Positions 1,136 through 19,698 of a DNA stretch of 33,803 nt are shown piece after piece. The position numbers were made by a program, and so were the translations under genes. A model generated the notes under the pieces. The model saw only the letters and a list, made by a program, of their open reading frames with translations, was not told where the DNA came from and did no database searches. Positions within the stretch are counted from its first letter, which is position 1; every line of letters starts with the position of its first letter. Origin of the DNA: Alphaproteobacteria bacterium (GTDB taxonomy: Bacteria > Bacteroidota > Bacteroidia > Chitinophagales > Chitinophagaceae); the NCBI GenBank assembly GCA_030053915.1, contig JASGCT010000025.1, positions 1 through 33,803 of the forward strand, read 5' to 3'.

Positions 1136-1380
1136 TTATTGCTTTATCAATTTCAAAGTGCCTTGTACCGTTGTACCATTAACTTTTAACAAATAAACAC
1201 CAGCCGGATAGCCTGACAGGTCTAAAACCACATTCCGATAATTATCTAATATAACCTCTTTAGAAAATAAATACCTCCCTTGTTCGGTAACTAAACGCAC
1301 TTGTAATTTTGTCTCGCTTCCGCCAACGTTTAAAGTTATTTGGTTTGAAGTTGGATTAGGATATAAACTCAAGGTTTCGC
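1136..1380 (-). other. T9SS type A C-terminal sorting domain of the giant protein
   Basis: The last 80 or so residues begin with the diagnostic YPNPTSN motif, continue with beta-strands (LQVRLVTEQGRYLFSKE, VVLDLSGYPAGVYLLKV) and end in GTLKLIKQ. The preceding segment (YTVLVNGKTYQ, then NGVNKIVVKTENACQGIYEE) is the small beta domain that often comes before such sorting domains in Bacteroidota. It marks the protein for export by the Por/Spr/Gld machinery; none of those machinery genes is in this window. Confidence 0.92.
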
Positions 1381-4300
1381 TCACTAAAATTGTTTCTTCA
1401 TAAATTCCTTGACAAGCATTTTCAGTTTTAACCACAATTTTATTAACACCATTCGATAAAGGCAAGTTTAGGTTGTTTGAAGATGTTTGATAAGTTTTAC
1501 CATTAACAAGAACCGTATAATTGTTACTGCCCGACAAATTTAAAGTAAGCTGTTTGTTGTTTGTTGAAAGTTGACTAAAGGCACTTATTTTTGAAGGTTG
1601 GCTTAACATAACACTAAAAATTCTATTGGAATACCCTGTATTTGGCGTGCTGTCATATACATTAATTTCATACAAACTATCAGCATACAAACCATACACG
1701 GTAAAACTTCGAGCGTTTAAAGTATATATCTGGGTATTATTCGTAATTGTATTCCGAACTGAAATTTTATTATAAATAGTTGTATCAATAAAATCAAGCA
1801 CGGCTTGTCCGCTTAATCCATAACAATTAGGATTTGTAACCCTTATGGTTATTGTATTTGACGGTACTGATATCGGTTTAAAGTTTACCCATAAACTGCT
1901 ATCGCCTTGCACACGATTAAAAATATATTCGTTGTTAAAAACCGATGTTAAAACACCATTAACCAATACACTATCAACTTGATATCCTATATTGGGTACA
2001 AATTTAACAGACACATTTGAGTCATATAATACCTTAATATTTCCAAACGGTGTAACAATTCCATTGGCACCAGAATTGATGGCTATTGTAAACATGCGTT
2101 GTTTAAACTTAGCAAAAATAGTGTGGTTCATCATAATATTTGTAAACAAAAATTGCGTTGAATTAGGCACATTTTTTCCGTCTATAAATAAGCTATCCAA
2201 TGCATAGCCTTGGTTTGGTATTATAGAAAATTGCATATTTTTTCCATAACCCACATGACTTATACCACTTGGGCTTATGGTGCCATTAAGTGTTGATAAG
2301 GCTTCAATATTAAAGGTTTTTAATTTATACCTAACTAAAATAGAGGTTTCGTTTTGAACATTATAAAAAGTATAGCTTTGAATAGAGTCGTTACCCACAA
2401 ATTCTTCATTAACAAAAATACTATCTAGTTCGTAACCAATTTGAGGGCGATAGGTAATGGTAATGCTATCACCTAATTTAATAGCTGTTGATTCGCTGAT
2501 AGTGCCATTAATAACTTGTGTATTGATATTCACTATATTACTTTGTGGAAATAATAAATCTGTTGTGTCTGAACTTAGTGATTGTTGCCCCCATGCATTC
2601 ACGGCAAAGACTGTAAATTTATACGCCAGGTTGTTTGATAAATTTTTTACAATAACAGGACTTTCGGTGCCCGAATCTACAGCCGAAGTATTTGTAGAAA
2701 CAACCACATATTTTACAACATCACCACCATTCCAATTTGTAGGCAAATTGAATCTCACAATGGCTTGTCCGTTTCCTGCAAAACCACCTAATAAAACAGG
2801 GGGTGTACTAGGTTCTACACGTCTAAAAGATACGTTAATAGTACTATCACCCGTTACAGCATCAAAGCGATAGGTTAAGCTATCTAAGCCCGCTTGCTGA
2901 CCATTTACGAACTTATAAATCAACCGTCCATTAACCACAATACTATCTATAATAAATGTGTCCATAGCTTTAATAATACAAGTTGTATTGCTGTCATTTA
3001 AAACAATATCGGAACCGTTTTCAAAACCAATGGTACCGCCTTCGTTATTCGAATAAATTATTCGGAAAGAATGCCGTTTAAATACAACTCGAATGGTTTG
3101 ATTATTGGTAACGTTATTAAAAGTATATTCTGAAACATTATTTATTAATTCATTATTTATCCAAATCGAATCAATATCAAATTCGTCATTGGGGGTTATT
3201 GTATAAGTGATGCTAGCGCCGTAATTTACAATATTTAAACCCGATGGCGAAATGCTACCACCGTTTCCAGTAATGGCGTTAATCGTAAAAGTTTTTAATT
3301 TAAAAGTTACCCGCAATGTTTGGTTCAACCTAACACTATCAAACCTATAAAAATTTTCCGTTGTTGCAAAAGTGTCATTCACAAAAACACTATCTATTTC
3401 ATAACCTGTATTAGGCGTGAAAACATATCGAATACTCGAATCATATTTTAAAAGCGTATCGCCGTTTGGATTAACATTGCCGCCGTTTCCAGCACTTGCC
3501 ATAATCGTAAAGGTTTTGTTTTTAAAGGTTACTCGTATGGTTTGATTAAATCTGACGCTATCAAACGTATAACTATTGTTGGTAGTGGCAAACCTGTCGT
3601 TTACAAAAACACTATCAACTTCATATCCAATATTCGGTATAAAAGAATATGTTATATTAGAATCATATTGTATTGTGTCTATTCCCAAAGGATTGATACT
3701 GCCGTTTTCGCCTGCACTTGAAATGATATTAAACCTTTGTTGTTTAAAAATTATCCGAATCATTTGGTTCGTTCGAATATTGTTAAATGTATAACTACTT
3801 AAAGAATCTACATTTCTAGTGCCATTAATAATAACGCTATCTAATTCATACCCCCTGTTTGGGCTATATATAAACTGTTGCGACGTGTCATAACTTAAAA
3901 CAATCAAACCATTAGGTTGTATTGTTCCACCTTCGTTTTCAGTACTTAAAATAATAACCGACTTATTACCAAAAACTACCATAATATTTAAATCTTGCGT
4001 GATGTTTTCTATGGTATATAAATAGGGTGTGTCAATTGATTGGTTTGCAAAACTAACTACTGAATTGTTGATTACAATATACCGTAATGTATTGCCAAAA
4101 CTGGGAATAATATTTAATATTTTATTGGAACCATAGGTTGCGAATGTATCGCTTAATAATTGTATTGTGCCTCCATTGTTAGCCTTGGTAGAAATGGTAA
4201 ATATTTGTTGTTTAAAACTTACATATATTGTTTGGTTCGTTTTAATACTATCAAACGTATAACTTTGGGATGTTGTAACAAAAGTATTGTTAACAAAAAC

Positions 4301-7300
4301 GCTATCTACTAAATAACCTACCTGAGGATGAAATGTGTAAGTTGGTCTTGTCCCATAATCGACTTGGCTTGTACCTTGTGGGTCTATACTACCACCCATA
4401 CCAGCAGTTGCCATTATTATAAAATTTTGTAGTTTAAAAATTACCCGAATTGTTTGGTTAGTTTTAACACTATCAAACGTAAAGTTGTTGGCACTCGTTA
4501 CAAAAATATCATTCACAAAAACACTGTCCACTACATAACCAGTATTGGGAATAAAATTATAAATTGGGGTTGAACCAAAATCAACTGTATCCAAGCCGTC
4601 TGGCATAATGATACCGCCGAAATTAGCAGTGGCTTGCACAAGATAGGTTTGTAAAATAAAAGAAACTCGTAAAGTTATATCATTTTGAATATTTTGTATT
4701 TTGTATAGATCTTTATCGTTTGCTATATAAATATTGTTCACAAAAAGGCTATCAGTTTTATAACCATAATTGGGTATAAAAGATACACTCAAAGATGAAT
4801 TATAATCTACCAAAGTATCATTGTTGATATTAATGCTACCATTGTTACCTATCATACTTCTAACCCTAAATTTTATAATAGAATAATAAACTGCAATGGT
4901 ATGATTGCGCATAATATTTACAAACTTAAACGAATCGGGATATAACGAAATATCCACTTTAACACTATCCACAACAATACTATCTAATTTATAACCATTG
5001 TTGGGATAATAATCAAAAGTTACGCTATCCCCAGTAAGTAAATGTGATACAATAAAATCAATGCCAGACATATTATCTTTAACATCTAATATTGTGCCAT
5101 TTACTACATGCGTTATAATATTATAGAGATTCGGGTCGGGCACAATACTATCGCTCAGGGCTGATAAAGGCGACTCTCCATTTTGGTTAACAGCAGAAAT
5201 TTTAAAAACATAACTACTATCATTGGTAAGACCATGAAGCGTTGCAGGAAAATTATTTACTGTATCAATTCTATTACCTGCATTTGAGTAAGCATATATT
5301 TTATAAAATAAAATTTTTGCTCCGCCCAAGCTTTCTGGAAGAAACGCATAAATTGTAGCAATAGCATTGCCCGCTATAATTGTATCGATACTTGGAGCAG
5401 TACTTATTGTGGATTGTTTAAAAACAACCCTTACAAGGCTATCGCCGGTTATGTTTTGAATTGTTAATTTAAACGTTGAGTCTCCTATATTTTGACCGCC
5501 ACTAAATGCATAGTTTAAATTGTTATTTACTAAAACACTATCAATATAATAACCTGTATTAGACATGATGCTCAAAGCCGCACTGTTTGCATAACGAACC
5601 ATATTGGTGCCGTCATTAAAAATTATCCGTCCGCCATCATTTAATAAAGTAGTTATCGTAAACGTTTTCAGTTTATAAATGACTTTAATGGATTTATTTG
5701 TTGTAATGGTGTCAAAAGTATAACCTGTTATAGAGTCAAGCGAAGCATTTGCATTATAAACTCCATTTATAAAAATACTATCTAATGTATAAGCAAAACT
5801 AATGGGGTTATAGGTTATTCTGTAACTTGAGTATTCATGTACACTTCTTTTGGGCGAAATGGTGCCATTAACAACTTCTGTTAAAATAATATCGAAGGTA
5901 TTGGTGGGCTTAACAACTAAACTTGGATTTGACATTGCAGATGTGCCTATGATATTGGTGGCAGTCATCGTAAAAGTATAAGGACTATCGTTTGTTAAAC
6001 CACTTATATATATTGGGCTTGCAACATCAATGCTTATTAAATTGGGTTTAGAACCAGTTACCGTGTACTTAGTTATAGATGGACAAAGCGTGGCGGGATT
6101 GGGTGTAAAATACACAAAAATCGCGCTATTTAAACCAACAACCGAATCAATTCTGGGAATCATAGGTAAAAATGAAACCACAAAGTCTTTAAAAAATCTA
6201 GTTGTAACCGTATTATTAATAGTGGTTCTCACTTTAATGAGACCACCGTAAAAATTATTTGGCATAGTCGCTTTCCAGTTATATAAAAATGCAGTATCTG
6301 CATCATACCAAGACACGCCGCTATCTACACTATACTGAATAACTTCATTGGGTTGAACTTTATCGGACAGGCTTCCTTCCAAAGTTTGTTCAGCAAAATT
6401 AACGCTATAAGAAGCCCCAGTACTATTTTTACTAATAATTGTAGCCGATGAATTTAATTGACCAGAAGTATTTGCTTCGTTAAATACCTGTGTATTATTT
6501 TGAATTGGTGTATTATTAGACAGCGTTTTGTTTAAGGGTAAATAATAGTACAAAGCCGCCGTATCTATTGGTGTGTTCGTGCTAACAATTGCGCTGATGT
6601 CGTCGTTAGATAACGCCCGTTTCCAAATTCTAAAATCTTGAAACCGACCAACCGTAGTTTTGTCTGCATCCCAATTTGAGCGACCAATAAAATTACTAAC
6701 AAGAATATTAGGTGCAATAGCATATTGATTGTACGTTCTATTGGCTATTAAAATACCATTAAGGAATAAACTTAAACTATTTCCAGAAAATCGGAGCGCA
6801 AAGTGATTCCAATTGGTGCTTATAAAATTTGCTGGCAAATTGGCAATCACGTTTTCATTACTATTGCTATGAAAATAAAGCTGTGTGCTATTTGCAAAAG
6901 CAAGTATAACACCAGAGTTGGCGCCGTTTGCTCCTGTTTTTTGCCCAAAATCAAATATTCTACTATTGTTCCCAATAACACCATCGTTTTTAAACCAAGT
7001 TTCAATGGTATAATTTGAATTACTTATTTCTAAAGCAGGTAAAGCAATATAGTCGCCGCCGCCACCATTGGCATTGGTAGATAATTTAATAGTGGCATTT
7101 CTAAATGTATAAATACTGTCTTTATTATTAGAGGTAACATAAAGGCTCAGGGTATTTGTAAAAGAATCATTTTGGATTGTGTAGCCCTTCACGTTTAAGA
7201 TATAGTTTCCAGAAGGTAAGGTATTATTCCAACTGATGATGCCAGTAACCGTATCAATTGCAATGCCATTCACCGGGTTCAAAATTTTAAAAACCATGCT

Positions 7301-10300
7301 CGGTTGATTTGAAACTGGCGCTTCTGATTGCCCTGAAATATAATTATTAACAGTTACAATAGCGTTGGGATAGTAAAAATTGGGTGTTTGGTAATAAAAA
7401 GGCTTTAAGTTTAAATAGCCATTGGCTGTAGCCGGATGAAAAGTAAATGAAGAACCATCAATCGTATAATATCCAGCACCACCATTGACGCCTATTTCAT
7501 TAATAACAATGCGGGCTGTGGGTATAAAATAACTTGAGCCACCGCCGCCGTTAGTGACATCACCACCACCACCACCATACCAACCGCCGCCGCCGCCGCC
7601 GCCATCAATGGTACCTAAGCCACCCTCACCAAAACTACCACCTGTAGCACCACCATAAGTATAGTCTGCCGCTTTACCTCCTGATGATTGGCTACCACCA
7701 CCCGTATTATTTGCCGAACCATTGGCTACCAAACCGCCACCGCCGCCGCCCGTAAACGATGCACCTTGACCGCCGCCGCCGCCAGCAACAATAATTCTGT
7801 TATTTAAACCTACACCACCCCTACGAATATCTGTAGCACCACCGCCTGCCGCCGAGCGCAGCGCCGGAAGATAACTATAATTACCCCGTTGCGTGGATCC
7901 ACCACCATTGTAACCGCCTATTTTAGCCACAAAAGTTCGTCCTGAATATCCTGTATTGTCCTGACCAGAACCACCCACAAACAAATTTAAAGTTTCGCCC
8001 GGCGTAACTTTAATATAGGCACGTACTCGACCTCCTGGAGGACTAAAGAGTTCATAAATATCGTTTATGCATCCACCACTTGCACCAACCGCTTCTACAT
8101 ATAATAAATAAACATTGGCGGGCACAGTAAACGTTTGTTGCGTATTTGTATTTCTATAATTATATACAGGATAGTCGATGAATACATGAACGGTTCGGAT
8201 AGCAAAACTATCCCCAAAATCGGCAGTAATTGTGTAAAAAGTTGATTGGACAGGGGTGGTGCTTCTCCAAATTATTCTACCTGTACTTGGATTTATAGAT
8301 ACACCCAAATTATTAGGCGCTATCGTAAAATGTTTTTGTAAAATCGCACTCGATATTGCAGGAAGGGCGGTGCTATCTGCCACTCCCAAAGTCCCAGTAT
8401 AATCATCTGGATTGTATTGAAATGAACTTGCTAGAGCAACTTTTGCAACCTTTAAGAAAAATTGGGTTGTAATCGTGCCTAAATTGTTAGATGCTTGGAT
8501 TGTTAGATTATAATTACCAATAGCCACAGCATTTGTCCAGTTAATAACCCCTGTCATTGAATCAATATCAATACCTGAAGCCCCTCCGGATATAATGCAA
8601 TATTTTACGTTACTACCAGCTTCAAGATGTGGTATTACCGAGTTTCCAGAATGTAAAAATGTATCTAAGAAGTAGGCATGCGAATAGTAAAAATTTTGTG
8701 GTGGAATCATTACAATATAATCTTTAAAAATCCTATTAGAGTTCGTTGAACTTTTTACTTTAATAGTACCGGTTTTAAAACTTGCTGGTAATGTTGCATA
8801 CCAATAAAGTTCCGTTACTCGATCTACTATTTCCCAACTATAACCATTATCAATGCTATATAAAATCGTTTCGAAGGAATCTAATGGCGTTAATAAACTC
8901 CCAAATAATTCTTGTTTGGTGCTATCGTAAACATATTGTGCCCCCGTGTTATTTTGACTAATGATTGTTGAATTTGAAACTAAAGCGCCATCCGCCGTTG
9001 AGGCGTTATTTAAAATAGTATTATTATTAATATTCATAGTTTTTGCTTGATTGTTTTGATAAAGTGGTAAGTAATAATATAAACCCACTGTGTTTGTTAA
9101 AACATTCATGTCATAATTTTGCTGAATCTCCTGTGCAGTGCGGGCAACTTTCCAAATTCTAAACGTATTAAATAAACCCTTGGTAGTTACATCATTCCAA
9201 TTAGAACGCCCAATAAAATTACTAACACAAGTACTTGGCAAAATATTTTGTTGACCATTTGAAACTGAACTTATTAAAACGCCATTGATGTATAAACTCA
9301 CTGATATACCATTCCAAACCAAGGCATAATGATTCCAACTTAACGGATTGTAACCTAAAGGAAATGAAACTAACAAGTCGCTACCGTTCACGTGAAAACC
9401 AAATTGATTCGAATTTGGAAACCCAAGTAAAACGCCCTCTGAAGTGCCATTACCATTAATACTTTTACCAAAGTCAAAAATTCGTTCCCAACTACTTACC
9501 GAAACATTGGCTTTAAACCATGTTTCTATTGTAAAATTCCCAGACATATCTAAACTTGGTAGTTGAACATAATCACCCGCACCACCGCTTCCCGAACTTG
9601 TAGTTTGAAAATTATTATTACTATAATATAATATGCTATCTTTTTGAAAAGGATTAAAAGGTATTATGGTGTCACTCACTGCCGACAAGCCCGATTCACC
9701 ATTAACATTCACTGCCGAAACCTGAAATGAATACTTATTTCGATTCACTAAATTTTGAATTGAAGTAGCTAAGGTTGTTGATGTTGAAATAATAGTATCA
9801 TTATTTAAATACCTATAAATTTTATAGTACAAAATAGGCACACCTCCAAAATTAGTAGGACTTGTTAAATATAAATTAGCAATAGCGTTTCCTGCAAAAA
9901 CAGAATCGATAGTTGGTGCTGTAGCTATGGCAGTTCTTTTGAACGAAACCGTTACAGAAGAATCCCCTCTTACGTTTAAAATACTAAAATTATTGGCTGT
10001 ATCTCCAATGCTTCTGCCGCCGCTAAAACGATAGTATAAAGAAGTGTCTTTCCAAATACTATCTATTATATAGCCCGATTGTGCCCTAATATTAATGGTA
10101 GCGTTGCTTCCATAATTCACTTTATTTGAACCCATAACAGAAATCGTTCCTCCAGCCGTATTCGCTCGAGTGGATATTGTAAAGGTTTTAATTCTATAGG
10201 TTACCCGAATGGTTGGACTGGCACCAGTTAAATTATAAAACGTAAAACTTGTTAATGAATCTGTTGAAATTCGAGCATCATAACTATTATTAATAAAAAT

Positions 10301-13300
10301 AGAATCTACCTGATAGCCAAGATTGGGTTGGTATGTAACACGAAAATTATCACCCCGTTTCACAAAAGTAGTAGGTGTTATTACACCATTGGCACCAGCC
10401 CTCGTTTGCACGGCAATTTTTGTAAAAGCATAACTACCATAAGACGATGATCCAGTAAAAATTGCCACGCCATATTGTATATTAAAAGGTATATTAAGCT
10501 GACCATAGCCATTAGATCCCCATGCTACAATAGTACCATCTTTTTTTAATGCTAAAGAATGGTTTATGCCAGCAACAATGTATCTCACATTGTTTAAATT
10601 AGCTGGTACATTAAGTTGGCCTTTATCATTACTACCCCAAACACTTACGCTGCCATCATTCTTTAAGGCTATTGAATGTTGTAGTTCTGGAATGTTATCA
10701 TTTCCTCCAACTGAAATTTGTTCAATATTGTTGAGTCCACTTGGAATATTATAAGGTCCATAAATATTACCCCAACCAGTAAGTGTACCATCATTTTTTA
10801 AAGCTAAACTATAACCAGAAGCCGTTGCAATGTGTTTTATATTATTGATACTTGCAGGAACTGGTGTATTGCCAGAACCGCTTATGCCACTTGCTCCCCA
10901 ACCTACAACGGTTCCATCATTTTTTAAAGCCAAAGAAAAATTAGTACCCGCCGCTACTTCAATGACGTTGTTTAAAGTGGCTGGAACAGTCGTTTGTCCA
11001 TATAAATTAGTACCACCAAATGCCCACACCTCGCCGTTGCTTCGTAATGCCAGCGTATGCGTTGAGTTCGATGATATTTGAACTACTTGATCTAAGCCGT
11101 ATGTGATATTTAATTCTCGGTTACTATTACCGCCCCAACCTACTAAAGTGCCATCTGTCTTTAAACCAATATTATAATATATACCACCTGAAATTTGAAC
11201 TAAATTTACATTGGTTGGAATATTATTAAGGCCATTAAAAGTTGCACCCCATGCTACATAACCAACGCTATCCGCACCAAAATTATAAACATTAATTAAA
11301 AATCGATTGTTAGCCCTTGTTTGGTCTTTAATCGCTTGCACATAATAAAGTCCAATAGCAGAACTTGCCGGTATCGTAAAATAAAAAATCGTGTCTAAGG
11401 TATTCATAATAGCTTCCTTATGTATATAGCCAATTTCTGAACTGTCATTATCTCTTCTTAAAACAATTTTATCAATGGTTTGTCCGCGAACCATTAACTG
11501 TTTACCAGCTTGCACCTGCGGCGTTACCGGACTAACCGAAAATGGCTTCACTTTAAAGACAACTTTTAAACTTGGATTAACCAGCACATTATAAAAAGTA
11601 TAACCTGTTACAGAATCCCTAGAGGCATTGGCATTATAAACCCCGTTGATATAAACGGAATCTAAAGAATAAGGCGGAAATGGCGCATACGTTACACGAT
11701 AATTACTACCTGAAAATATTTTAGGAGTCGATTCAATATACCCATTCACAACCGAAGTGTTCACCGAACTAAAAACAGAATCAAAATTAAACACATAATC
11801 ATTAAAAAATCTATTTGGATTGTTGTTTAATCTTACTTGAATCCTTCCAAATTTAAAACTTGGCGGAAGGGTTGCTAACCAATAATAACCTATCACTGTA
11901 TCTACATTGTGCCAACTTTGACCGCCATTTAAACTATATTGTACATGTTGCCCAATAGGTATCGTGTCGCTCAATGAACCATATAAAAACTGACGATTGG
12001 TGTCATAAAAATAACGGGCGCCGATATTAGTTTGACTTATTATCATTGCCGAATCATTCAAAGCAGCAAATGCCATTGACGCATTATTTAATTTGGTGCC
12101 ATTGGGAATAGTAACAGTTTGTACAAGATTCTTTTTATTTAAAGGTAAATAATAATATAAGTTAAAAGTATTATTTAAAACTGAAATCTTGTAATTTTGC
12201 TGAATCTCTTGGGTGGTTTTGGCAGTTTTCCAGATTCTAAATGTATTAAAAAATCCTTTAGTTGATAAATCGTTCCAATTAGATCTTCCAATATAATTGC
12301 TGACACAGGTTCCTGGTAAAATATCCTGCTGACCAGCAGATGTAGAACTCGTTAAAACCCCATTGATATACAAATTTACAGACGAGCCATTCCAAACCAA
12401 AGCATAATGGTTCCAATTTAAGGGATTAAAACCTGATGGAAATGAAATAACACTGTCGCTGCCATTCACATGAAATCCCAATTGGGTAGCAGTAGGAAAT
12501 CCTAGCAAAACCCCTTCGGAAGTTCCATTACCGTTAATACTTTTTCCAAAATCAAAAATTCTTTCCCAACCACCAACTGTTACATTACTTTTAAACCATG
12601 TTTCTATGGTAAAATTACCAGACATGTCTAATGCGGGTAATTGTATATAATCACCTCCCTGTCCAGAACCAACTGTAGTAGTTTGAAAACTATTATTACT
12701 CAAAAACAAAATAGAATCTTTTTGAAATGGATTAAAAGGCCTAATTGTGAGACTCATAGCCGATAAAGGCGACTCACCAATAATATTCACTGCTGATACT
12801 TTAAAAGTATAATCTCTTTTATTCATCAAATTTACTGCCGTAAAAAACTCTGTTGTAGCAGTTGATACTAAAGTATCGCTATTAGAATATGTATATATTT
12901 TGTAATACAAAATGGGTGCCCCACCAAAATTATTGGGGCTTGTAAAATATAGTTTTCCCGAAGCATTGTCAGCAATAACCGAATCAATTACGGGTGCTGA
13001 TGATGGCGTGATGCTTCTAAACCATGCTTTTATCGAACTATCCCCTTTTACCTGCAATAACGAAAAACTATTGATGTTGCTTCCTATATTTCTACCTTGT
13101 TCAAAAGCATAATACAAGTTGCCGTTTTTCCATATACTATCAACAATATAGCCCGATTGAGCTACCACATTGATAACCGCTGTGCTATCATATTTTACAA
13201 TATTGCCACCTACTACATTAATAACGCCACCAGTATTGGTGCTTGTAACAATTCTAAACGTTTGATTTCTATAGGTAACTTTAAATGTAGGATTCCCCTT

Positions 13301-15841
13301 AATACCCTTAAAGGTGTATCCCGTTAAAGAATCTGCGGTTACAATCGAATCATATACGCCATCTATAAATATAGAATCAATAACATAGCCTATATTGGGT
13401 GCATAAGTAACTCTAAAAGTATCATTATATTTAACAAAAGTCGTGTCGGTTATAGAACCATGAGGCGTTGGTATTGTTTGTACACTTACTTTAGATATCA
13501 CAAAACTAAAATAAGCATCACAACCACTACTAACCTGAACCGCATTTTTAATATTCGGCGGAATATTTAAAGACCCAAAATTATTATAGCCAAAACCAAC
13601 GATAGTGCCGTTTTGTAATAAACAAAGTGTATGTATTGCGCCATTGGCAATTTGAGTAACATGTCTTAAATTTGGCGGTTGGTCTATTTCACCAAGATCA
13701 TTAATACCCCAACCCACAACGGTACCATCTTTTTTTAAGGCTATAGAATAGCCGCCTATGGCTTGAATATCAGCCGAACCCGCTTTTACTTGTACCACAC
13801 CACTTAACCCCTGTGGTATTGGATATTGTAAAACAGAATTAAATCCCCAAATCACCACAGTACTATCATTTTTAATACCTAAGGAATGACCATAACCTGA
13901 ACTTAATTGAACAAGATCATGATTGATGTTTGCTGGAAACGCGACGTTTATATTGCCAGAAGGTCCCCAGGCAACAATAGTCCCATCCGACTTTAAAGCT
14001 ATGGAGTGAAATGGACCAGCCTCCACTTGAACCACATTGTTTAAACCCTGCGGCACATTAATTTGTTGGTTAAAATTATTACCCCAAGCGACTACTGTGC
14101 CATTCGAACGCAAGGCTAAAGAATGTCGCGACCCTGCAGATATTTGGACAAAATCGTTTTCCCCTGTCGGCGTATTTACTAATTCACCATAGCTATTATT
14201 ACCCCAAGCTAACACGCTGCCATCTTTCTGCAAAGCTACTGCAAAAAATCTACCCGCCGCTAATTGAACCAGCGTTCTTACATCGGGAACATTTAACTGA
14301 CCACCACCATTTTCGCCCCACTTATAGATCGTAACACTATCCGTGCCAAAATTATAGATGGTTATAGCAAAAGTATTTACAGAACGAGCCACACCGCTTA
14401 CACCCGTTACAGAATAAGTACCTACAGATAAATAATTCGGCAAAATAAAATAATAATTGGTGTCTGATATAAAAACGGCTTCCCGTTTAAAATTGTTTAT
14501 TACAAAACTATCATTAAATTTCTTTAAAATTATACTTTCAAGCCTATCACTTCTAACTATTAAAGTATCTCCAGCTCGCAAAACCCCTTTTTTAATTTGT
14601 TTTAATTTAAACTGATTCGTATAAACAACATGGATGGCTTGATTGACTAAAATATTATAAAAAGTATAACCTGTATTAGAATCTAAGCTGGCATGTGGGT
14701 CGTAAACACCATTAACGTAGATGCTATCAATATAATAGCTACTGTTTCCTGAATACGTTACCCTATAAGAACTTAGATCGGTAAATACATTTTGAGTAGG
14801 GCTTATACTACCGTTGACTACATGTGTTGTAATTGAATTAAATATGGTGTCTATAGAAAAGGTAAAATTGGTAAACAATCTACTGGGTTCATTATTAATT
14901 CTCATTTGAATCGTTCCAGATCTAAAACTTGTTGGCAAAGTTGCCACCCACTGATTATTTATAATAGTATCTACTTTTGTCCATGTAAAACCCGCATCTA
15001 TACTATACTCTAATGTGTCGTTGGTTACCAGCGGTGCTGAGAGTGTTCCCAATAATAACTGCCGTGTTGCATCGTAAAAATATCGAGCACCTAAGCCGTT
15101 ATGGCTTATGATAGTTGCACTTCTATTAAGCGACCCCACAGTGGTTGACGCATTGTGTAGAATCGTATTATTTGGAATTAAGATTAACTGAACCAGACTA
15201 TCTTTTGTAAGTGGCAAATAATATAATAAGTTCGGGCTGTTTGGTAGCGTTCTAAATCGATAGTTTTGCCGTATCTCTTGGGAAGTTTTAGCCACTGACC
15301 ATATTCTAAACTCTTGAAATTGCCCAATTGTAGAAGCATTATTATAATTTGCCGCTCCTATTTTACAGGTACTTAACACTAAATTTGTATCACGAAAACT
15401 ATACGTATCGATACTTTCACCATTTATATATGTAGAAATAAAACCATTGTTTTTAACCATCGCAACATGATACCATTGATTATTATTAATCGTATTGGGT
15501 GTGCCAATCATGCGATCACCATTGATAAACAATTGACCACTTGTGGCATGAAATCCTATGGATAACACATTGTTTCCTGGTTGTGTACCTGCTTCAAAAA
15601 TGCGTTGAAAACTTCTGCTTTTATCAGAAACTCGAAACCAAACTTCAATCGTAAAATTTGACTTGGCTAACGAATCTAAACTTGGCAATTGAATATAATC
15701 GCCATTACTTCCAGAGGCATCTGTTGTAGTCTGAAAACTGTTGTTATTCAAAAACAAAATGGAGTCTTTTGACTGCGCGGTCAATTTGAAAAAACCTAAA
15801 AACAAAAAATACAAAAATACAATAAAAAGTCTCATATACAT
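1136..15841 (-). CDS. Giant multidomain secreted protein (LamG, RCC1, InlB-B-like, FN3, Gly-rich) with T9SS sorting domain
   Basis: This 4901-residue protein has a signal peptide (cleavage likely after LTAQ, residue 23; Met3 is an alternative start) and a type A T9SS C-terminal domain (about 4821-4901, beginning LSLYPNPTSN). It is therefore predicted to cross the outer membrane through the type IX system and be displayed on or released from the cell. Approximate order: LamG (24-215), beta-sandwich, InlB-B-like repeat, IPT/TIG-like domain, seven RCC1 repeats (504-782), two InlB-B-like repeats, FN3 (948-1036). The same set recurs in 1040-2066, with LamG at 1040 and RCC1 at 1527-1806. Then come a third LamG (2066-2262), two cadherin/He_PIG-like domains, a glycine-rich domain (2559-2801), a fourth LamG (about 2907-3105), FN3 domains near 3230, 3480 and 4343, long InlB-B-like arrays, and an SprB-like segment (about 4661-4747). 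LamG and RCC1 folds usually bind glycans or proteins, so adhesion or matrix binding is plausible but inferred. No catalytic domain was recognised. Confidence 0.93.
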   Translation of the reverse strand: MYMRLFIVFLYFLFLGFFKLTAQSKDSILFLNNNSFQTTTDASGSNGDYIQLPSLDSLAKSNFTIEVWFRVSDKSRSFQRIFEAGTQPGNNVLSIGFHATSGQLFINGDRMIGTPNTINNNQWYHVAMVKNNGFISTYINGESIDTYSFRDTNLVLSTCKIGAANYNNASTIGQFQEFRIWSVAKTSQEIRQNYRFRTLPNSPNLLYYLPLTKDSLVQLILIPNNTILHNASTTVGSLNRSATIISHNGLGARYFYDATRQLLLGTLSAPLVTNDTLEYSIDAGFTWTKVDTIINNQWVATLPTSFRSGTIQMRINNEPSRLFTNFTFSIDTIFNSITTHVVNGSISPTQNVFTDLSSYRVTYSGNSSYYIDSIYVNGVYDPHASLDSNTGYTFYNILVNQAIHVVYTNQFKLKQIKKGVLRAGDTLIVRSDRLESIILKKFNDSFVINNFKREAVFISDTNYYFILPNYLSVGTYSVTGVSGVARSVNTFAITIYNFGTDSVTIYKWGENGGGQLNVPDVRTLVQLAAGRFFAVALQKDGSVLAWGNNSYGELVNTPTGENDFVQISAGSRHSLALRSNGTVVAWGNNFNQQINVPQGLNNVVQVEAGPFHSIALKSDGTIVAWGPSGNINVAFPANINHDLVQLSSGYGHSLGIKNDSTVVIWGFNSVLQYPIPQGLSGVVQVKAGSADIQAIGGYSIALKKDGTVVGWGINDLGEIDQPPNLRHVTQIANGAIHTLCLLQNGTIVGFGYNNFGSLNIPPNIKNAVQVSSGCDAYFSFVISKVSVQTIPTPHGSITDTTFVKYNDTFRVTYAPNIGYVIDSIFIDGVYDSIVTADSLTGYTFKGIKGNPTFKVTYRNQTFRIVTSTNTGGVINVVGGNIVKYDSTAVINVVAQSGYIVDSIWKNGNLYYAFEQGRNIGSNINSFSLLQVKGDSSIKAWFRSITPSSAPVIDSVIADNASGKLYFTSPNNFGGAPILYYKIYTYSNSDTLVSTATTEFFTAVNLMNKRDYTFKVSAVNIIGESPLSAMSLTIRPFNPFQKDSILFLSNNSFQTTTVGSGQGGDYIQLPALDMSGNFTIETWFKSNVTVGGWERIFDFGKSINGNGTSEGVLLGFPTATQLGFHVNGSDSVISFPSGFNPLNWNHYALVWNGSSVNLYINGVLTSSTSAGQQDILPGTCVSNYIGRSNWNDLSTKGFFNTFRIWKTAKTTQEIQQNYKISVLNNTFNLYYYLPLNKKNLVQTVTIPNGTKLNNASMAFAALNDSAMIISQTNIGARYFYDTNRQFLYGSLSDTIPIGQHVQYSLNGGQSWHNVDTVIGYYWLATLPPSFKFGRIQVRLNNNPNRFFNDYVFNFDSVFSSVNTSVVNGYIESTPKIFSGSNYRVTYAPFPPYSLDSVYINGVYNANASRDSVTGYTFYNVLVNPSLKVVFKVKPFSVSPVTPQVQAGKQLMVRGQTIDKIVLRRDNDSSEIGYIHKEAIMNTLDTIFYFTIPASSAIGLYYVQAIKDQTRANNRFLINVYNFGADSVGYVAWGATFNGLNNIPTNVNLVQISGGIYYNIGLKTDGTLVGWGGNSNRELNITYGLDQVVQISSNSTHTLALRSNGEVWAFGGTNLYGQTTVPATLNNVIEVAAGTNFSLALKNDGTVVGWGASGISGSGNTPVPASINNIKHIATASGYSLALKNDGTLTGWGNIYGPYNIPSGLNNIEQISVGGNDNIPELQHSIALKNDGSVSVWGSNDKGQLNVPANLNNVRYIVAGINHSLALKKDGTIVAWGSNGYGQLNIPFNIQYGVAIFTGSSSYGSYAFTKIAVQTRAGANGVITPTTFVKRGDNFRVTYQPNLGYQVDSIFINNSYDARISTDSLTSFTFYNLTGASPTIRVTYRIKTFTISTRANTAGGTISVMGSNKVNYGSNATINIRAQSGYIIDSIWKDTSLYYRFSGGRSIGDTANNFSILNVRGDSSVTVSFKRTAIATAPTIDSVFAGNAIANLYLTSPTNFGGVPILYYKIYRYLNNDTIISTSTTLATSIQNLVNRNKYSFQVSAVNVNGESGLSAVSDTIIPFNPFQKDSILYYSNNNFQTTSSGSGGAGDYVQLPSLDMSGNFTIETWFKANVSVSSWERIFDFGKSINGNGTSEGVLLGFPNSNQFGFHVNGSDLLVSFPLGYNPLSWNHYALVWNGISVSLYINGVLISSVSNGQQNILPSTCVSNFIGRSNWNDVTTKGLFNTFRIWKVARTAQEIQQNYDMNVLTNTVGLYYYLPLYQNNQAKTMNINNNTILNNASTADGALVSNSTIISQNNTGAQYVYDSTKQELFGSLLTPLDSFETILYSIDNGYSWEIVDRVTELYWYATLPASFKTGTIKVKSSTNSNRIFKDYIVMIPPQNFYYSHAYFLDTFLHSGNSVIPHLEAGSNVKYCIISGGASGIDIDSMTGVINWTNAVAIGNYNLTIQASNNLGTITTQFFLKVAKVALASSFQYNPDDYTGTLGVADSTALPAISSAILQKHFTIAPNNLGVSINPSTGRIIWRSTTPVQSTFYTITADFGDSFAIRTVHVFIDYPVYNYRNTNTQQTFTVPANVYLLYVEAVGASGGCINDIYELFSPPGGRVRAYIKVTPGETLNLFVGGSGQDNTGYSGRTFVAKIGGYNGGGSTQRGNYSYLPALRSAAGGGATDIRRGGVGLNNRIIVAGGGGGQGASFTGGGGGGLVANGSANNTGGGSQSSGGKAADYTYGGATGGSFGEGGLGTIDGGGGGGGWYGGGGGDVTNGGGGSSYFIPTARIVINEIGVNGGAGYYTIDGSSFTFHPATANGYLNLKPFYYQTPNFYYPNAIVTVNNYISGQSEAPVSNQPSMVFKILNPVNGIAIDTVTGIISWNNTLPSGNYILNVKGYTIQNDSFTNTLSLYVTSNNKDSIYTFRNATIKLSTNANGGGGDYIALPALEISNSNYTIETWFKNDGVIGNNSRIFDFGQKTGANGANSGVILAFANSTQLYFHSNSNENVIANLPANFISTNWNHFALRFSGNSLSLFLNGILIANRTYNQYAIAPNILVSNFIGRSNWDADKTTVGRFQDFRIWKRALSNDDISAIVSTNTPIDTAALYYYLPLNKTLSNNTPIQNNTQVFNEANTSGQLNSSATIISKNSTGASYSVNFAEQTLEGSLSDKVQPNEVIQYSVDSGVSWYDADTAFLYNWKATMPNNFYGGLIKVRTTINNTVTTRFFKDFVVSFLPMIPRIDSVVGLNSAIFVYFTPNPATLCPSITKYTVTGSKPNLISIDVASPIYISGLTNDSPYTFTMTATNIIGTSAMSNPSLVVKPTNTFDIILTEVVNGTISPKRSVHEYSSYRITYNPISFAYTLDSIFINGVYNANASLDSITGYTFDTITTNKSIKVIYKLKTFTITTLLNDGGRIIFNDGTNMVRYANSAALSIMSNTGYYIDSVLVNNNLNYAFSGGQNIGDSTFKLTIQNITGDSLVRVVFKQSTISTAPSIDTIIAGNAIATIYAFLPESLGGAKILFYKIYAYSNAGNRIDTVNNFPATLHGLTNDSSYVFKISAVNQNGESPLSALSDSIVPDPNLYNIITHVVNGTILDVKDNMSGIDFIVSHLLTGDSVTFDYYPNNGYKLDSIVVDSVKVDISLYPDSFKFVNIMRNHTIAVYYSIIKFRVRSMIGNNGSININNDTLVDYNSSLSVSFIPNYGYKTDSLFVNNIYIANDKDLYKIQNIQNDITLRVSFILQTYLVQATANFGGIIMPDGLDTVDFGSTPIYNFIPNTGYVVDSVFVNDIFVTSANNFTFDSVKTNQTIRVIFKLQNFIIMATAGMGGSIDPQGTSQVDYGTRPTYTFHPQVGYLVDSVFVNNTFVTTSQSYTFDSIKTNQTIYVSFKQQIFTISTKANNGGTIQLLSDTFATYGSNKILNIIPSFGNTLRYIVINNSVVSFANQSIDTPYLYTIENITQDLNIMVVFGNKSVIILSTENEGGTIQPNGLIVLSYDTSQQFIYSPNRGYELDSVIINGTRNVDSLSSYTFNNIRTNQMIRIIFKQQRFNIISSAGENGSINPLGIDTIQYDSNITYSFIPNIGYEVDSVFVNDRFATTNNSYTFDSVRFNQTIRVTFKNKTFTIMASAGNGGNVNPNGDTLLKYDSSIRYVFTPNTGYEIDSVFVNDTFATTENFYRFDSVRLNQTLRVTFKLKTFTINAITGNGGSISPSGLNIVNYGASITYTITPNDEFDIDSIWINNELINNVSEYTFNNVTNNQTIRVVFKRHSFRIIYSNNEGGTIGFENGSDIVLNDSNTTCIIKAMDTFIIDSIVVNGRLIYKFVNGQQAGLDSLTYRFDAVTGDSTINVSFRRVEPSTPPVLLGGFAGNGQAIVRFNLPTNWNGGDVVKYVVVSTNTSAVDSGTESPVIVKNLSNNLAYKFTVFAVNAWGQQSLSSDTTDLLFPQSNIVNINTQVINGTISESTAIKLGDSITITYRPQIGYELDSIFVNEEFVGNDSIQSYTFYNVQNETSILVRYKLKTFNIEALSTLNGTISPSGISHVGYGKNMQFSIIPNQGYALDSLFIDGKNVPNSTQFLFTNIMMNHTIFAKFKQRMFTIAINSGANGIVTPFGNIKVLYDSNVSVKFVPNIGYQVDSVLVNGVLTSVFNNEYIFNRVQGDSSLWVNFKPISVPSNTITIRVTNPNCYGLSGQAVLDFIDTTIYNKISVRNTITNNTQIYTLNARSFTVYGLYADSLYEINVYDSTPNTGYSNRIFSVMLSQPSKISAFSQLSTNNKQLTLNLSGSNNYTVLVNGKTYQTSSNNLNLPLSNGVNKIVVKTENACQGIYEETILVSETLSLYPNPTSNQITLNVGGSETKLQVRLVTEQGRYLFSKEVILDNYRNVVLDLSGYPAGVYLLKVNGTTVQGTLKLIKQ
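2830..4880 (-). repeat. Tandem InlB-B-like repeats (nine consecutive units) inside the giant gene
   Basis: Nine adjoining units of roughly 70-75 residues follow one pattern: F-x-I-x-x-x-A-x-x-G-G-x-I-x-P-x-G, then Y-x-x-D-S-V-F-V-N-D, then Y-T-F-D-S-V-x-x-N-Q-T-I-R-V-x-F-K. This matches the divergent InlB B-repeat family. Units near 3300-3550, 4220-4450 and 4440-4640 are the most alike and share long stretches of DNA sequence, which suggests recent duplication. About twelve further single or paired units lie elsewhere in the gene, roughly 21 in total. Confidence 0.8.
7441..8166 (-). repeat. Glycine-rich domain with GGC/GGT triplet tracts inside the giant gene
   Basis: Residues about 2559-2801 start with a beta-sandwich-like lead (QTFTVPANVYLLYVEAVGAS) and continue into a glycine-rich region with GGGATDIRRGG, IIVAGGGGGQGAS and GGGGGGGWYGGGGGD. 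The lead-in and the ATDIRRGG motif resemble the glycine-rich domain of the ALK/LTK type found in many secreted Bacteroidota proteins. On the + strand the coding shows as uninterrupted CCG triplets at 7584-7603 and CAC/CCA triplets at 7560-7576, a local G+C-rich island in AT-rich DNA. Confidence 0.75.
10425..11263 (-). repeat. RCC1 repeat array 2 (seven units) inside the giant gene
   Basis: A second set of seven W/F-G units (AWGATFNG, GWGGNSNRE, AFGGTNLYG, GWGASGISG, GWGNIYGP, VWGSNDKGQ, AWGSNGYGQ) with the same L-K-x-D-G-T and H-S-L-A-L pattern, residues about 1527-1806. It sits in the same position relative to LamG2 as array 1 does to LamG1, as expected if both came from duplication of one super-module. 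Confidence 0.85.
13497..14331 (-). repeat. RCC1 repeat array 1 (seven units) inside the giant gene
   Basis: Seven units each carry a W/F-G turn (KWGENGGGQ, AWGNNSYGE, AWGNNFNQQ, AWGPSGN, IWGFNSV, GWGINDLGE, GFGYNNFGS). They are separated by about 40 residues with the pattern L-K-x-D-G-T-V and V-Q-x-x-A-G-x-x-H-S-L-A-L. Seven blades is the number needed for one closed RCC1-type beta-propeller, so the array is probably a complete domain (residues about 504-782). Family assignment is from the motif; the propeller is inference. Confidence 0.85.
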
Positions 15842-15939: not shown

Positions 15940-15947
15940 CAAATGTA
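15940..15947 (-). promoter_or_regulatory. Promoter -7 element of the giant gene, with flanking inverted repeat
   Basis: The minus strand reads TACATTTG, a match to the Bacteroidota -7 element TAnnTTTG, 98 bases before the ATG. No good TTTG lies at the expected -33 distance. The element overlaps the inner edge of one arm of a perfect inverted repeat, AAAGTGCAA (15934-15942) and TTGCACTTT (15968-15976), separated by 25 bases. The missing -33 box plus a dyad over the core promoter suggests a regulated promoter, which is inference. Confidence 0.5.
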
Positions 15948-16363: not shown

Positions 16364-17407
16364 TTAGTAATTACTATTTAGATACGTTGGGGCGTTGTTT
16401 CGATATACTAATAGAACCCTCTCAAAACTTACCACAATAGATTTTGAACTATCAAAAGCCCGAGTTGTAACTGTTAAGATACCTTGAGTGGGTCGAGATT
16501 TCGACTCTTTCTTAGCTATAATTTCGGATTCTGTAAAAAATTCTTCATCTGGAAAAACCTCTCGTTTAAGTTCTATGTTTTTCCATTCTAAATTAGCTAC
16601 AACCTTTCCAAATGTTCGTGTTGTGGCAGTAGTAACGATGGTTAAAGCCGACATTTCGTTTATAGGATTAAGAGGCAACCCAAAATATTGTTTATAGTAG
16701 TTACTATTTACATATTTTGGATTCCATTCTAATGCTAACAAGTCGTTATTAATAGATTCATCTGCATAGAATTTTCTTGAAGGGAAATGTTCGTATATTT
16801 CGCCCTGATTAAAATCTTCAAAAAACAAACCCGATTGTTCCATCAAAGTATTATTGGCATTTTTATAAGCTGAAAATCTATCTTCAAGATTTTCTATGGC
16901 TAAGGATTGATAATAAGGATGCTTCCCTTGGCGATACACAGCAATAACATATTGAATTTTAGTAATTAAAATATTAGATTGATTAAATCCTCGTGTTTCC
17001 ACTAAAATTTTACCTGTGTCTGGGCTATCTGAAATGATAATCTCAAGAATTTCACTTTCTGAATATATTGTGTCGCCAGAAAATACTGGGTGTAACATTG
17101 CAATACTATTAAAGCGTTCTATTCTTAGTTTTTTAAAAAATGTTTTCCATGTCATGCCAATAACTCTTTTAATAGTTACTGTACTTACAACCAAGCATTG
17201 TTTCCATTCGGTTGAGGCGCCATAATTACCGTCATAGTGGAGTTGGGCAAAATTAGTGGTGCTAAGGGCTTCGTTTTTATTGTCTTCTTGAGAAACAGTA
17301 ACTCCAGGCCGATGTTTGAATATTTGACCTACTTGAAATTGTTCAAAATCTAAGCCATAAACTTCCCTATATTTTTGAGAAGCAATTTTTGCATATGCTG
17401 AAAACAT
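16364..17407 (-). CDS. Double-hotdog MaoC-family enoyl-CoA hydratase (itaconyl-CoA / mesaconyl-CoA hydratase type)
   Basis: 347 residues with two hotdog (MaoC) halves. The first (about 15-160) keeps the substrate/catalytic motif N-F-A-Q-L-H57-Y-D59 and HPVFSGDTIYSESEIL. The second (about 195-337) has the matching FPDEEFFTESEII and SRPTQGILTVTTRA strands, but Leu-Glu-Trp-Asn (226-229) where L-H-x-D would sit, so it is probably structural only. Length and double-domain form fit mesaconyl-CoA hydratases and related MaoC hydratases, which add water across C4-C5 branched unsaturated dicarboxyl-CoA esters. It is the third gene of an operon, 16 bases after the CoA-transferase stop. With that transferase and the CitE-like lyase it forms an activate-hydrate-cleave set, as in itaconate degradation (Ich/RipB). 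Substrate is inferred from context. Confidence 0.8.
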   Translation of the reverse strand: MFSAYAKIASQKYREVYGLDFEQFQVGQIFKHRPGVTVSQEDNKNEALSTTNFAQLHYDGNYGASTEWKQCLVVSTVTIKRVIGMTWKTFFKKLRIERFNSIAMLHPVFSGDTIYSESEILEIIISDSPDTGKILVETRGFNQSNILITKIQYVIAVYRQGKHPYYQSLAIENLEDRFSAYKNANNTLMEQSGLFFEDFNQGEIYEHFPSRKFYADESINNDLLALEWNPKYVNSNYYKQYFGLPLNPINEMSALTIVTTATTRTFGKVVANLEWKNIELKREVFPDEEFFTESEIIAKKESKSRPTQGILTVTTRAFDSSKSIVVSFERVLLVYRNNAPTYLNSNY

Positions 17408-17423
17408 ATATTTATTTTTTTAG

Positions 17424-18779
17424 TTAAATTAGATTTATTTTTTGGGCTTCAAAACTAAGTTGTTCGCGAAAACTTGGGTGGGCTAATTGAATTAAAGCTA
17501 AGGCACGTTGTCTATTGGTTTTTCCCTGGATATTCACGCAGCCGTATTCGGTTGCTACAAATTCAACATCTGTTCGGGCGGTAGTTACAATATTGTTTAA
17601 TTTTGGCACAATCTTTGAGATGGTGCCATTTTTAGCAGTAGAATTTGCAGCTAAAAAGCTTTTTCCGCCATTAGATAAAGTAGCCCCTCTAATAAAATCT
17701 ACTTGACCACCTGTGCCAGTGATTTGCTTCCAGTTAACCGATTCTGATGCTACTTGACCAAATAAATCTATTTCAACAAAAGAATTTACAGATATTACGT
17801 TGTCGTTTTGTCTAATAATATCGGGATCGTTAACATAATCGGCAGGATAGCATAAAATTGAAGGGTTATTATTAATAAAATCGTAATGTTCTTGAGTTGG
17901 CAGCATGCAAACGTTAAAAACCGTATGGTATCTATTTGTTTTTTTATATTTATTTGTAACATTGCCGTTGGCAATCAATTCAATCATGGAGCCACCTAAA
18001 AGTTCAGTATGAACACCTAAATCATTTAAGTTAAACAAATTGTCGCCAATGATATCTGGAATGCCTCCGATACCTAATTGTAAACAATAGCCATCTTTAA
18101 TAAAGGGTAAAATAAATTCGCTGATGGCTTTACTTTCGGGTGCAATCGAAGGGCTGGCGGAAATTCCTAAGGGTTCATCGTTTTCAACAATCATATCAAT
18201 TTCACTAATATGTATCAACCCTTCCCCAAAAGTTTTCGGCATATATTTATTCACCTCAACTATTTTCTTTTTGGCTATTTTAGACATTGGAATTGAGTAA
18301 CTACCATCCACTCCAAAACTAAAATATCCCGATTGGTCCATAGGCGACACTTGAAACATGTGAACATCTGGTGGACTGATGTGATTAAATAAAAAACCGG
18401 AACTCATTTTACTAAAATGAGACGGAATATATTCAACTGTATGAAGATGGTGTTCGTTTGAAAAATTTAAAATGGCACCAAAAGCACCGCCAACAAAAGG
18501 GAGCTCCAAATGAATTTTATTTAGTAATTCTTTGTCTTTAAATAAAACGGCAACATTTTCGGAAGATCTAAACAAAAAAAGTGTAGGCACCTCTAAAAAA
18601 TTATCCGCTTTAACAGCTGAGATAAAAGATTTGATTAGGGTATTTGGGGTTGCTGAATAAGCGCCACAGGTAATTGTTTTGGCTGATTTTTCTATGTTTA
18701 AAATGGCTTCATCGGGTGTTGTTTTTTTTTGTTCATAAAGACTTTGGATATTACTTGCAGAAAATTTATAGTTTTTCAT
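17424..18779 (-). CDS. Family I CoA-transferase (acetyl-CoA hydrolase / 4-hydroxybutyrate CoA-transferase family)
   Basis: 451 residues, the usual length of the Cat/4-hydroxybutyrate CoA-transferase family. Visible motifs: the glycine-rich loop LQLGIGGIPDIIG (233-245), the catalytic glutamate in GVHTELLGGSM (Glu259, which forms the glutamyl-CoA thioester in this family), and GTGGQVDFIRGA (355-366), which helps form the oxyanion and CoA pocket. The enzyme moves CoA from a donor such as acetyl-CoA or succinyl-CoA to a free carboxylate in the cytoplasm. Its place between a CitE-like lyase and a MaoC hydratase suggests it activates itaconate, mesaconate or a similar C5 acid, as Ict/RipA does. Simple acetyl-CoA hydrolase or succinate:acetate CoA-transferase activity remains possible from sequence alone. 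It starts 52 bases after the lyase stop. Confidence 0.85.
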   Translation of the reverse strand: MKNYKFSASNIQSLYEQKKTTPDEAILNIEKSAKTITCGAYSATPNTLIKSFISAVKADNFLEVPTLFLFRSSENVAVLFKDKELLNKIHLELPFVGGAFGAILNFSNEHHLHTVEYIPSHFSKMSSGFLFNHISPPDVHMFQVSPMDQSGYFSFGVDGSYSIPMSKIAKKKIVEVNKYMPKTFGEGLIHISEIDMIVENDEPLGISASPSIAPESKAISEFILPFIKDGYCLQLGIGGIPDIIGDNLFNLNDLGVHTELLGGSMIELIANGNVTNKYKKTNRYHTVFNVCMLPTQEHYDFINNNPSILCYPADYVNDPDIIRQNDNVISVNSFVEIDLFGQVASESVNWKQITGTGGQVDFIRGATLSNGGKSFLAANSTAKNGTISKIVPKLNNIVTTARTDVEFVATEYGCVNIQGKTNRQRALALIQLAHPSFREQLSFEAQKINLI

Positions 18780-18831
18780 AGCTTATTAATTTTTTTTATA
18801 AATTTAGTTGTGTGTATCGCTTTTAATATTA

Positions 18832-19698
18832 TTATGGTTTTTGTAAAGTGGCATTGTAAATAGCCATGGTTTTTTGAGCTTTTTTTATAACAGGATAGTC
18901 AACCATTTTTCCATTAAATTCAAAAACATTACCATGTGATTTTTCCATTTGGTCTAAGAGATTTTGAGCTTCCGCAACTTCTTCTGGAGAGGGTGTAAAA
19001 ATTTTATTAATACTTGGAACTTGTTTAGGGTGAATAGCAAATTTTGCTGAAAATCCTAAATTTTTTACATGTTGAATTTCGTTGTCTAAGGGTCCATTGT
19101 CAGCGTCTTTGAGTCCTAAATATGGCACATCATAGGCCGGAATACCTGCATTAGCGGCGGCTGACACAATTAAAGATCTGGTAAACAACATCTCTTCCCA
19201 ACTTAATATTGCGCCAATATCTGCCGAAAAATCTGCGCCGCCAAATACTAAGGCTTTAATATTATTACTGGCTTTGGTAATATTATAAATTTCATGAAGT
19301 CCTTTTGCTGTTTCTATAAGCAAAATTAAAGGCAAAGGATTATAAAAAAACAAATTGTTTAAAACATCAATTTCTCCAGCTGTTTCGGTTTTAGGAATTA
19401 ATAAAGCATCTGGGGTAATTTTGTTTTCAATAATAGTTTGCGCATCTTTAAGTCCTGCAAGGGTTTTTATAGAGTTCATTCTTAAAAATACGCCAACTTT
19501 ACTATTTTGAAAATTGTTTTGATTAAAATAATCTACGACTATTTTACGAGCTGTGTCTTTATCGTTTAACGATACAGCATCTTCTAAGTCAATTACAATG
19601 GCATCCGCTCCAGAATCAAGGGCTTTTTGAAAACGATCTGGACGATTAGCCGGAACAAACAAAACAGAACGGCAACAGCTGAATTGAAATGTACGCAT
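18832..19698 (-). CDS. HpcH/HpaI-CitE family beta-hydroxyacyl-CoA lyase (citramalyl-CoA / malyl-CoA lyase type)
   Basis: 288 residues, a single TIM-barrel domain of the CitE-like family. It carries RSVLFVPANRPDRF (10-23, Arg10 for CoA/carboxylate binding), VIDLEDAV (35-42), Arg73 in FLRMN, and the Mg2+ ligands Glu129 (LLIETAKGL) and Asp156 (FGGADFSADIG). These enzymes cleave malyl-CoA, beta-methylmalyl-CoA or citramalyl-CoA by retro-Claisen reaction to acetyl-CoA or propionyl-CoA plus a 2-oxoacid. It lacks citrate lyase alpha and gamma partners nearby, so it is not a citrate lyase subunit. As first gene of the operon with a CoA-transferase and a hydratase, a (S)-citramalyl-CoA lyase role (Ccl/RipC) giving pyruvate plus acetyl-CoA is the best guess. 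I saw no good TTTG / TAnnTTTG promoter before it. Confidence 0.85.
   Translation of the reverse strand: MRTFQFSCCRSVLFVPANRPDRFQKALDSGADAIVIDLEDAVSLNDKDTARKIVVDYFNQNNFQNSKVGVFLRMNSIKTLAGLKDAQTIIENKITPDALLIPKTETAGEIDVLNNLFFYNPLPLILLIETAKGLHEIYNITKASNNIKALVFGGADFSADIGAILSWEEMLFTRSLIVSAAANAGIPAYDVPYLGLKDADNGPLDNEIQHVKNLGFSAKFAIHPKQVPSINKIFTPSPEEVAEAQNLLDQMEKSHGNVFEFNGKMVDYPVIKKAQKTMAIYNATLQKP

Follow-up and report, generated by a model that had tools for sequence, protein, structure and literature searches.

A 4,901-residue putative T9SS surface protein with tandemly duplicated LamG and RCC1 cassettes and a mosaic relationship to its paralogues

The window analyzed is the whole of contig C138, 33.8 kb long, from a draft genome of 2.72 Mb in 166 contigs (95% complete, 0.5% contamination). 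An ORF at 1136-15841 on the minus strand is a single uninterrupted frame of 4,901 codons, with its start and stop both within the contig. Three genes upstream of it (16364-19698, minus strand) resemble an itaconate-degradation (rip) set and encode a double MaoC-type hydratase (RipB model 238 bits, below the cut-off of 340), a CoA transferase, and a CitE-like lyase. A TonB-dependent receptor at 19888-21332 (minus strand) is apparently split or truncated, with a 295-aa plug-domain piece and a separate 181-aa piece that has no Pfam match. Promoter-like TAnnTTTG words occur upstream of the giant gene (e.g. at 15947), which in AT-rich DNA is a lead only. A Pfam search of the giant protein returned LamG (PF13385) in four stretches, RCC1, FN3, an InlB-B-type repeat, an ALK/LTK glycine-rich domain (GRD), and a Por secretion tail. 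The domain order was annotated with HMMs built from the protein itself, and the small beta-sandwich found after each LamG, which lacks a confident Pfam name, is labeled SAND. The order LamG, SAND, InlB, IPT, seven RCC1, InlB, InlB2, FN3 occurs twice and is followed by LamG, SAND, two Ig-like domains, GRD, and a further Ig-like domain, then by a fourth module, an InlB/FN3 stalk, and the tail. The features are as follows.

1136..15841 (-): giant gene for a putative T9SS substrate, 4,901 aa, ATG to stop, complete inside C138
15776..15841 (-): putative N-terminal signal peptide, residues 1-22; hydrophobic start and cleavage between LTA and Q, called by eye
12722..15769 (-): module 1 (M1), residues 25-1040; LamG, sandwich, InlB, IPT, seven RCC1, InlB, InlB, FN3, PFNPFQ linker
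15056..15769 (-): LamG1, pentraxin-like jellyroll of the C109b type; 65% to the C109b LamG, support 100/99
13511..14611 (-): IPT-like domain and first seven-bladed RCC1 propeller, residues 411-777; AlphaFold2 pLDDT 90.9, best match BLIP-II
9644..12721 (-): module 2 (M2), residues 1041-2066, order as in module 1; 48.8% identity to module 1 over 1,009 aa
11993..12721 (-): LamG2, chimeric, first ~160 aa C24-like and end C109b-like; model pLDDT 89.8
10439..11272 (-): second RCC1 propeller, seven blades, residues 1524-1801, from domain annotation
7124..9643 (-): module 3 (M3), residues 2067-2906; LamG3, sandwich, two Ig-like, Gly-rich domain, Ig-like; colinear with C24 residues ~343-880
7514..8101 (-): ALK/LTK-type glycine-rich domain, residues 2581-2776; Pfam PF12810, E 1.1e-23
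5138..7123 (-): module 4, residues 2907-3568; LamG4, sandwich, FN3, InlB, InlB, FN3; LamG4 pairs with C24 LamG2, support 85/89
1862..5137 (-): stalk of InlB-B-like repeats and FN3, residues 3569-4660; 3720-4560 C109b-like, up to 78%
1367..1861 (-): conserved ~160-aa region ahead of the sorting tail, C24-like; C138 with C24, support 97/93
1139..1366 (-): type A T9SS C-terminal sorting domain; TIGR04183 32.4 bits (cut-off 23), PF18962 30.5 bits (cut-off 27)

An earlier note on this DNA described a 4,901-residue T9SS protein of repeated blocks of about 1,020 residues, and the frame, the type A tail, and the alignment of M1 with M2 bear out this description. The KDSIL motif recurs as it reported, at residues 25, 1041, and 2067 (nt 15769, 12721, and 9643; spacings of 3,048 and 3,078 nt), and the PFNPFQ linker stands ahead of the second and third copies at residues 1035 and 2061. 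Pfam and the HMMs both recover the domain order that it gave as common to modules 1 and 2. Two details need revision. The count of three LamG domains becomes four with the LamG module at residue 2907 (KDSIY...) that had been missed, and module 3, said to keep only its LamG, also keeps the small sandwich domain behind it. The glycine-rich domain of module 3 scores 85 bits against a curated cut-off of 24.5, and among the ORFs examined a second copy is present only in C24.

The tail matches both TIGR04183 and PF18962 over their cut-offs, which places it in type A. The genome has 24 type A and 10 type B tail matches, and the C138 protein is not among the type B (TIGR04131) matches. SprB repeats (PF13573) are absent from its Pfam matches at E <= 0.1. 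A spacing of 157-168 aa before the sorting tail is alike in most type A tail proteins of the giant family. Searches of the genome found SprA at 1987 bits and a PorV family match at 259 bits. The sortase PorU gave no match with NF033707 or PF01364 (Peptidase_C25) in searches whose controls were weak, in a genome 95% complete. Cleavage between LTA and Q would agree with the Q-rule of Bacteroidota (PMC5837995). Export of the protein by the T9SS is predicted from its tail together with the SprA and PorV genes.

Internal repeats were mapped by tiled protein queries against the C138 protein. M1 and M2 can be aligned end to end with small gaps over 1,009 of about 1,020 residues at 48.8% identity, and the score of 2332 compares with a mean of 65 and a maximum of 94 for shuffled sequences. 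The module-length diagonal anticipated by the earlier note is present as a single line at a constant offset of 1,016-1,026, spanning residue 25 to about 1,403. The high-identity diagonals of ~3 kb that it also expected did not appear; DNA identity is 59% over 1,365 aligned codons, and the best local value is 69%. The closest relative of the InlB2-FN3-linker segment of module 1 is that of module 2, and the reverse also holds (FN3 62% identical, sisters in the tree at 89/91). Because the backs of the two modules are mutual nearest relatives, these comparisons indicate that a tandem duplication within the giant gene did happen. The two propellers tell less about their origin, being 42% identical to each other and 39-43% identical to those of other paralogues, which is about equal distance.

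Fourfold-degenerate sites between the modules differ at 0.64, where saturation is 0.72, and the longest exact direct repeat within the gene is 21 bp. With silent sites near saturation and exact repeats this short, the duplication is an old one and no product of faulty assembly. Collapsed or falsely joined repeats would be a natural concern in a 166-contig draft where many family ORFs stop at contig ends and two N gaps lie in or near family ORFs. As the source of the length of this gene they are extremely improbable given these values, a window without N, and one frame of 4,901 codons. LamG2 and LamG3 are 77-80% identical as proteins, and their fourfold sites differ at 0.66 (NG86 dN 0.19, dS 1.5; the dS is near saturation and rough). 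Recent conversion between them was considered and rejected, since their silent sites are as saturated as those elsewhere; their likeness therefore appears to have been kept by purifying selection.

The C138 protein was tiled against its paralogues, including C109b (2,796 aa) and C24 (3,339 aa), and trees were built for LamG and for separate blocks. Tiling places residues 1-340 nearest C109b, with 58-75% identity over the first 160. In LamG2 and LamG3 the opening ~160 residues are nearest C24 (60-74%), and the ends of both domains together with their sandwich domains are nearest C109b and each other. Farther along the protein, residues 2361-3300 are colinear with C24, 3420-3660 are nearest C24, 3720-4560 are mostly nearest C109b (up to 78%), and 4560-4901 are nearest C24 (55-72%). 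The order IG-IG-GRD-IG-LamG4-sandwich-FN3 is also colinear with C24. The trees concur with the tiling wherever they have resolving power. In them LamG1 pairs with the C109b LamG at 100/99, and its identity to that domain is 65% versus 43% to LamG2. LamG2 and LamG3 are closest to the first LamG of C24 (60-62%), a grouping supported at 63/66. Forcing LamG1-3 into one clade costs 99.5 units of lnL and is rejected (p-AU 1.1e-5). The block 4241-4520 groups with C109b at 98/99, and the C-terminal 265 residues fall with C24 (97/93).

These data bear on the proposal of the earlier note that a cassette of ~1,020 residues was duplicated in tandem from M1 to M2 to M3, after which the end of M3 was replaced, read here as a history with no exchange between genes. 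The constant offset, the same order in M1 and M2, the common PFNPFQ linker, and the mutual nearest relationships of FN3 1/2 and InlB2 1/2 all agree with it, and the tandem duplication of a unit of about 1,026 residues stands on the diagonal and the module backs. The descent of LamG2 from LamG1 does not stand. LamG1, LamG2, and LamG3 do not form one clade, so the proposal is already rejected for the LamG part; LamG1 is nearer C109b than LamG2, and LamG2 is nearer C24 (62%) than LamG1. Nor does an unspecified replacement in M3 fit, as the replaced part is colinear with C24. Duplication without exchange is thus unlikely as a full account. The rejected clade and the colinearity of the end of module 3 with C24 make recombination between paralogues the better reading of the replacement. 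The history supported by these sequence comparisons is that the C138 gene is a mosaic to which at least two paralogues and internal duplication have contributed.

A search of the same genome with module 1 gave 197 matches, spread over many other giant frames. At least 33 ORFs or ORF fragments carry at least three of the same domains each and sum to 78,312 codons, at least 8.6% of the 2.72 Mb; several are cut by contig ends, and some fragments may belong to one gene. The family genes are dispersed over many contigs. The small sandwich follows LamG in 19 of 19 annotated pairs, and 31 of 32 IPT-like domains stand ahead of RCC1 repeats, most often with seven blades. These regularities suggest that LamG-sandwich and IPT-RCC1 are fixed cassettes whose order has been permuted. 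The largest frame (C109:99160-139035) encodes at least 13,292 aa and runs off the contig end. This frame (L061/L043/L044) has two LamG-sandwich pairs near its start and a type B T9SS tail, and about 11,000 of its residues lie outside the family HMMs. Another giant frame of 6,937 aa, with a sub-cut-off type B tail, begins at 42175 of C58 on the minus strand (L120/L121).

Other family members have repeats of different units and ages. C109b duplicated another unit than C138, and its two propellers are 62% identical. C68 (L047:9678-17267) contains a head-to-tail unit of 3,795 bp, or 1,265 codons, that is in frame and includes two IPT-propeller cassettes. Its copies have four differences, all within the first 23 bp, and the remaining 3,772 bp are exact. 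The frame that contains the repeat is 3,751 aa long and runs into a 100-N gap some 2 kb downstream; with the gap so close, the repeat could be an assembly error. C165 has a repeat with a 450-bp period at 99.3%, and C109b has 222-bp InlB units at 95.6%. If the assembly is right, these repeats suggest that cassette duplication is still going on. C158 (L059 ~7870-9200, minus strand) is a broken miniature relative with a LamG start that has an internal stop, a frame change, and a C138/C24-like tail. This decayed gene suggests loss of cassettes in addition to gain.

The model of the IPT-like domain with RCC1 (pLDDT 90.9) has BLIP-II as its best match (TMt 0.91, 30% identity, profile E 3e-57), and its seven short blades close a propeller; seven RCC1 repeats are annotated per cassette. 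The LamG-sandwich model (pLDDT 89.8) matches pentraxin/LamG folds over model residues 4-242 with Z about 20. Ligand binding by the LamG domains and propellers is predicted from these folds, and a common fold is not proof of a ligand. The domains could alternatively belong to enzymes or degradative complexes, with LamG and InlB as accessory carbohydrate-binding parts of a catalytic unit. LamG-type domains often occur alongside glycan-active enzymes, the AbnA arabinanase hit being one example, and a Pfam match to 3-keto-disaccharide hydrolase overlaps LamG4. That match falls on a LamG-family jellyroll that fits far better overall as LamG, and the Pfam search found no catalytic family elsewhere in the C138 protein, which makes an enzymatic role improbable.

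We consider it about two-thirds probable that the C138 gene encodes a T9SS-exported, surface-displayed, multi-ligand binding protein that grew by cassette duplication and paralogue recombination. It would belong to a family of giant surface proteins, exported by the T9SS, whose genes are found across the genome. The gene would have grown by in-frame tandem duplication of multi-domain cassettes and by recombination with at least two paralogues, C109b and C24. Export would start through Sec, as judged from the signal-peptide-like N terminus only, and the type A tail would guide passage through the T9SS to display on the surface or release from it. The LamG jellyrolls and the BLIP-II-like seven-bladed propellers would serve as the heads that bind ligands, with the InlB/FN3/Ig repeats as a spacer stalk, roles suggested by the folds. 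Growth and exchange would thereby alter the number and type of binding heads. A bolder reading is that the genome holds an actively recombining, dispersed store of interchangeable cassettes (LamG-sandwich, IPT-propeller, InlB stalk), in which ongoing duplication and paralogue exchange remodel the heads fast enough to switch partners or evade recognition, making it a diversity-generating system for T9SS surface proteins. We regard this as conceivable but doubtful. For the multi-ligand binding protein, the LamG-sandwich and IPT-propeller cassettes supply defined units for binding tests.

The earlier note called the combination of LamG, RCC1, and a Gly-rich domain in a T9SS substrate unusual, and its rarity is weakened by an ORF of 2,837 aa from a different genus within the family (G268, L115:8992-17502) that likewise has RCC1 repeats, LamG, and a type A tail. 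The G268 ORF differs in its Ig_3/Ig_7 domains and domain order, and the HMMs built here detected neither the small sandwich nor InlB-like domains in it. It adjoins a 2,934-aa neighbor (L115:2-8803) with SprB repeats, LamG, and a type A tail; in a related genus, then, giant T9SS genes can be neighbors. Of the order's 396 genomes, 199 have a LamG or RCC1 match, with two candidates per genome scored. The whole cassette had no match outside this genome in order and phylum scans that scored two to five candidates per genome. The phylum-level scan with LamG-sandwich, in which five candidates per genome were scored, listed matches to LamG only; outside this genome none of them extended over the small sandwich (positions about 235-306). 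Searching the contigs of other genomes with module 1 gave distant LamG matches at 27-28% identity and no near orthologue. No relevant paper linking RCC1 to LamG in Bacteroidota turned up in our literature search. Type A tails are often more numerous in relatives than in this genome, so the features that stand out are size and cassette sharing, not the number of tails.

Several known systems resemble parts of this protein. BLIP-II (beta-lactamase inhibitory protein II) is a bacterial RCC1-like seven-bladed propeller that binds an enzyme tightly. The C138 propeller has the same fold and sequence profile; it lies within a surface protein and has an IPT domain in front. RemA is a lectin-bearing T9SS adhesin of Flavobacterium johnsoniae. 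The SprB/RemA gliding adhesins of that species are likewise giant or lectin-bearing T9SS surface proteins, and the way of working, adhesion, is likely similar. The C138 protein differs in having a type A tail, where SprB has type B (PMC9143113), and in showing no SprB repeats. The type A sorting tail and RCC1 repeats are shared with THC0290_2385 of Flavobacterium psychrophilum, an RCC1-repeat protein with a TIGR04183 tail that is in the wild-type surfome and not in that of gldD or gldG mutants (PMC5682007). The comparison covers the tail and RCC1 only; the C138 protein has 4,901 aa with LamG, glycine-rich, Ig-like, FN3, and InlB domains. Giant1-5 of Apilactobacillus kunkeei are giant surface genes that take up about 6% of a small genome and are diversified by intragenic recombination (PMC12863079). 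They resemble the present family in their share of a small genome and in recombination-diversified giant surface proteins, and differ in phylum, in their beta-solenoid heads, and in forming one gene cluster, whereas the LamG/RCC1/InlB cassette genes are dispersed. Giant bacterial surface proteins are usually seen singly, but here old, intermediate, and apparently fresh duplications and paralogue exchange occur in one 2.7-Mb genome, so that the steps in building giant proteins of this kind can be dated and put in order.
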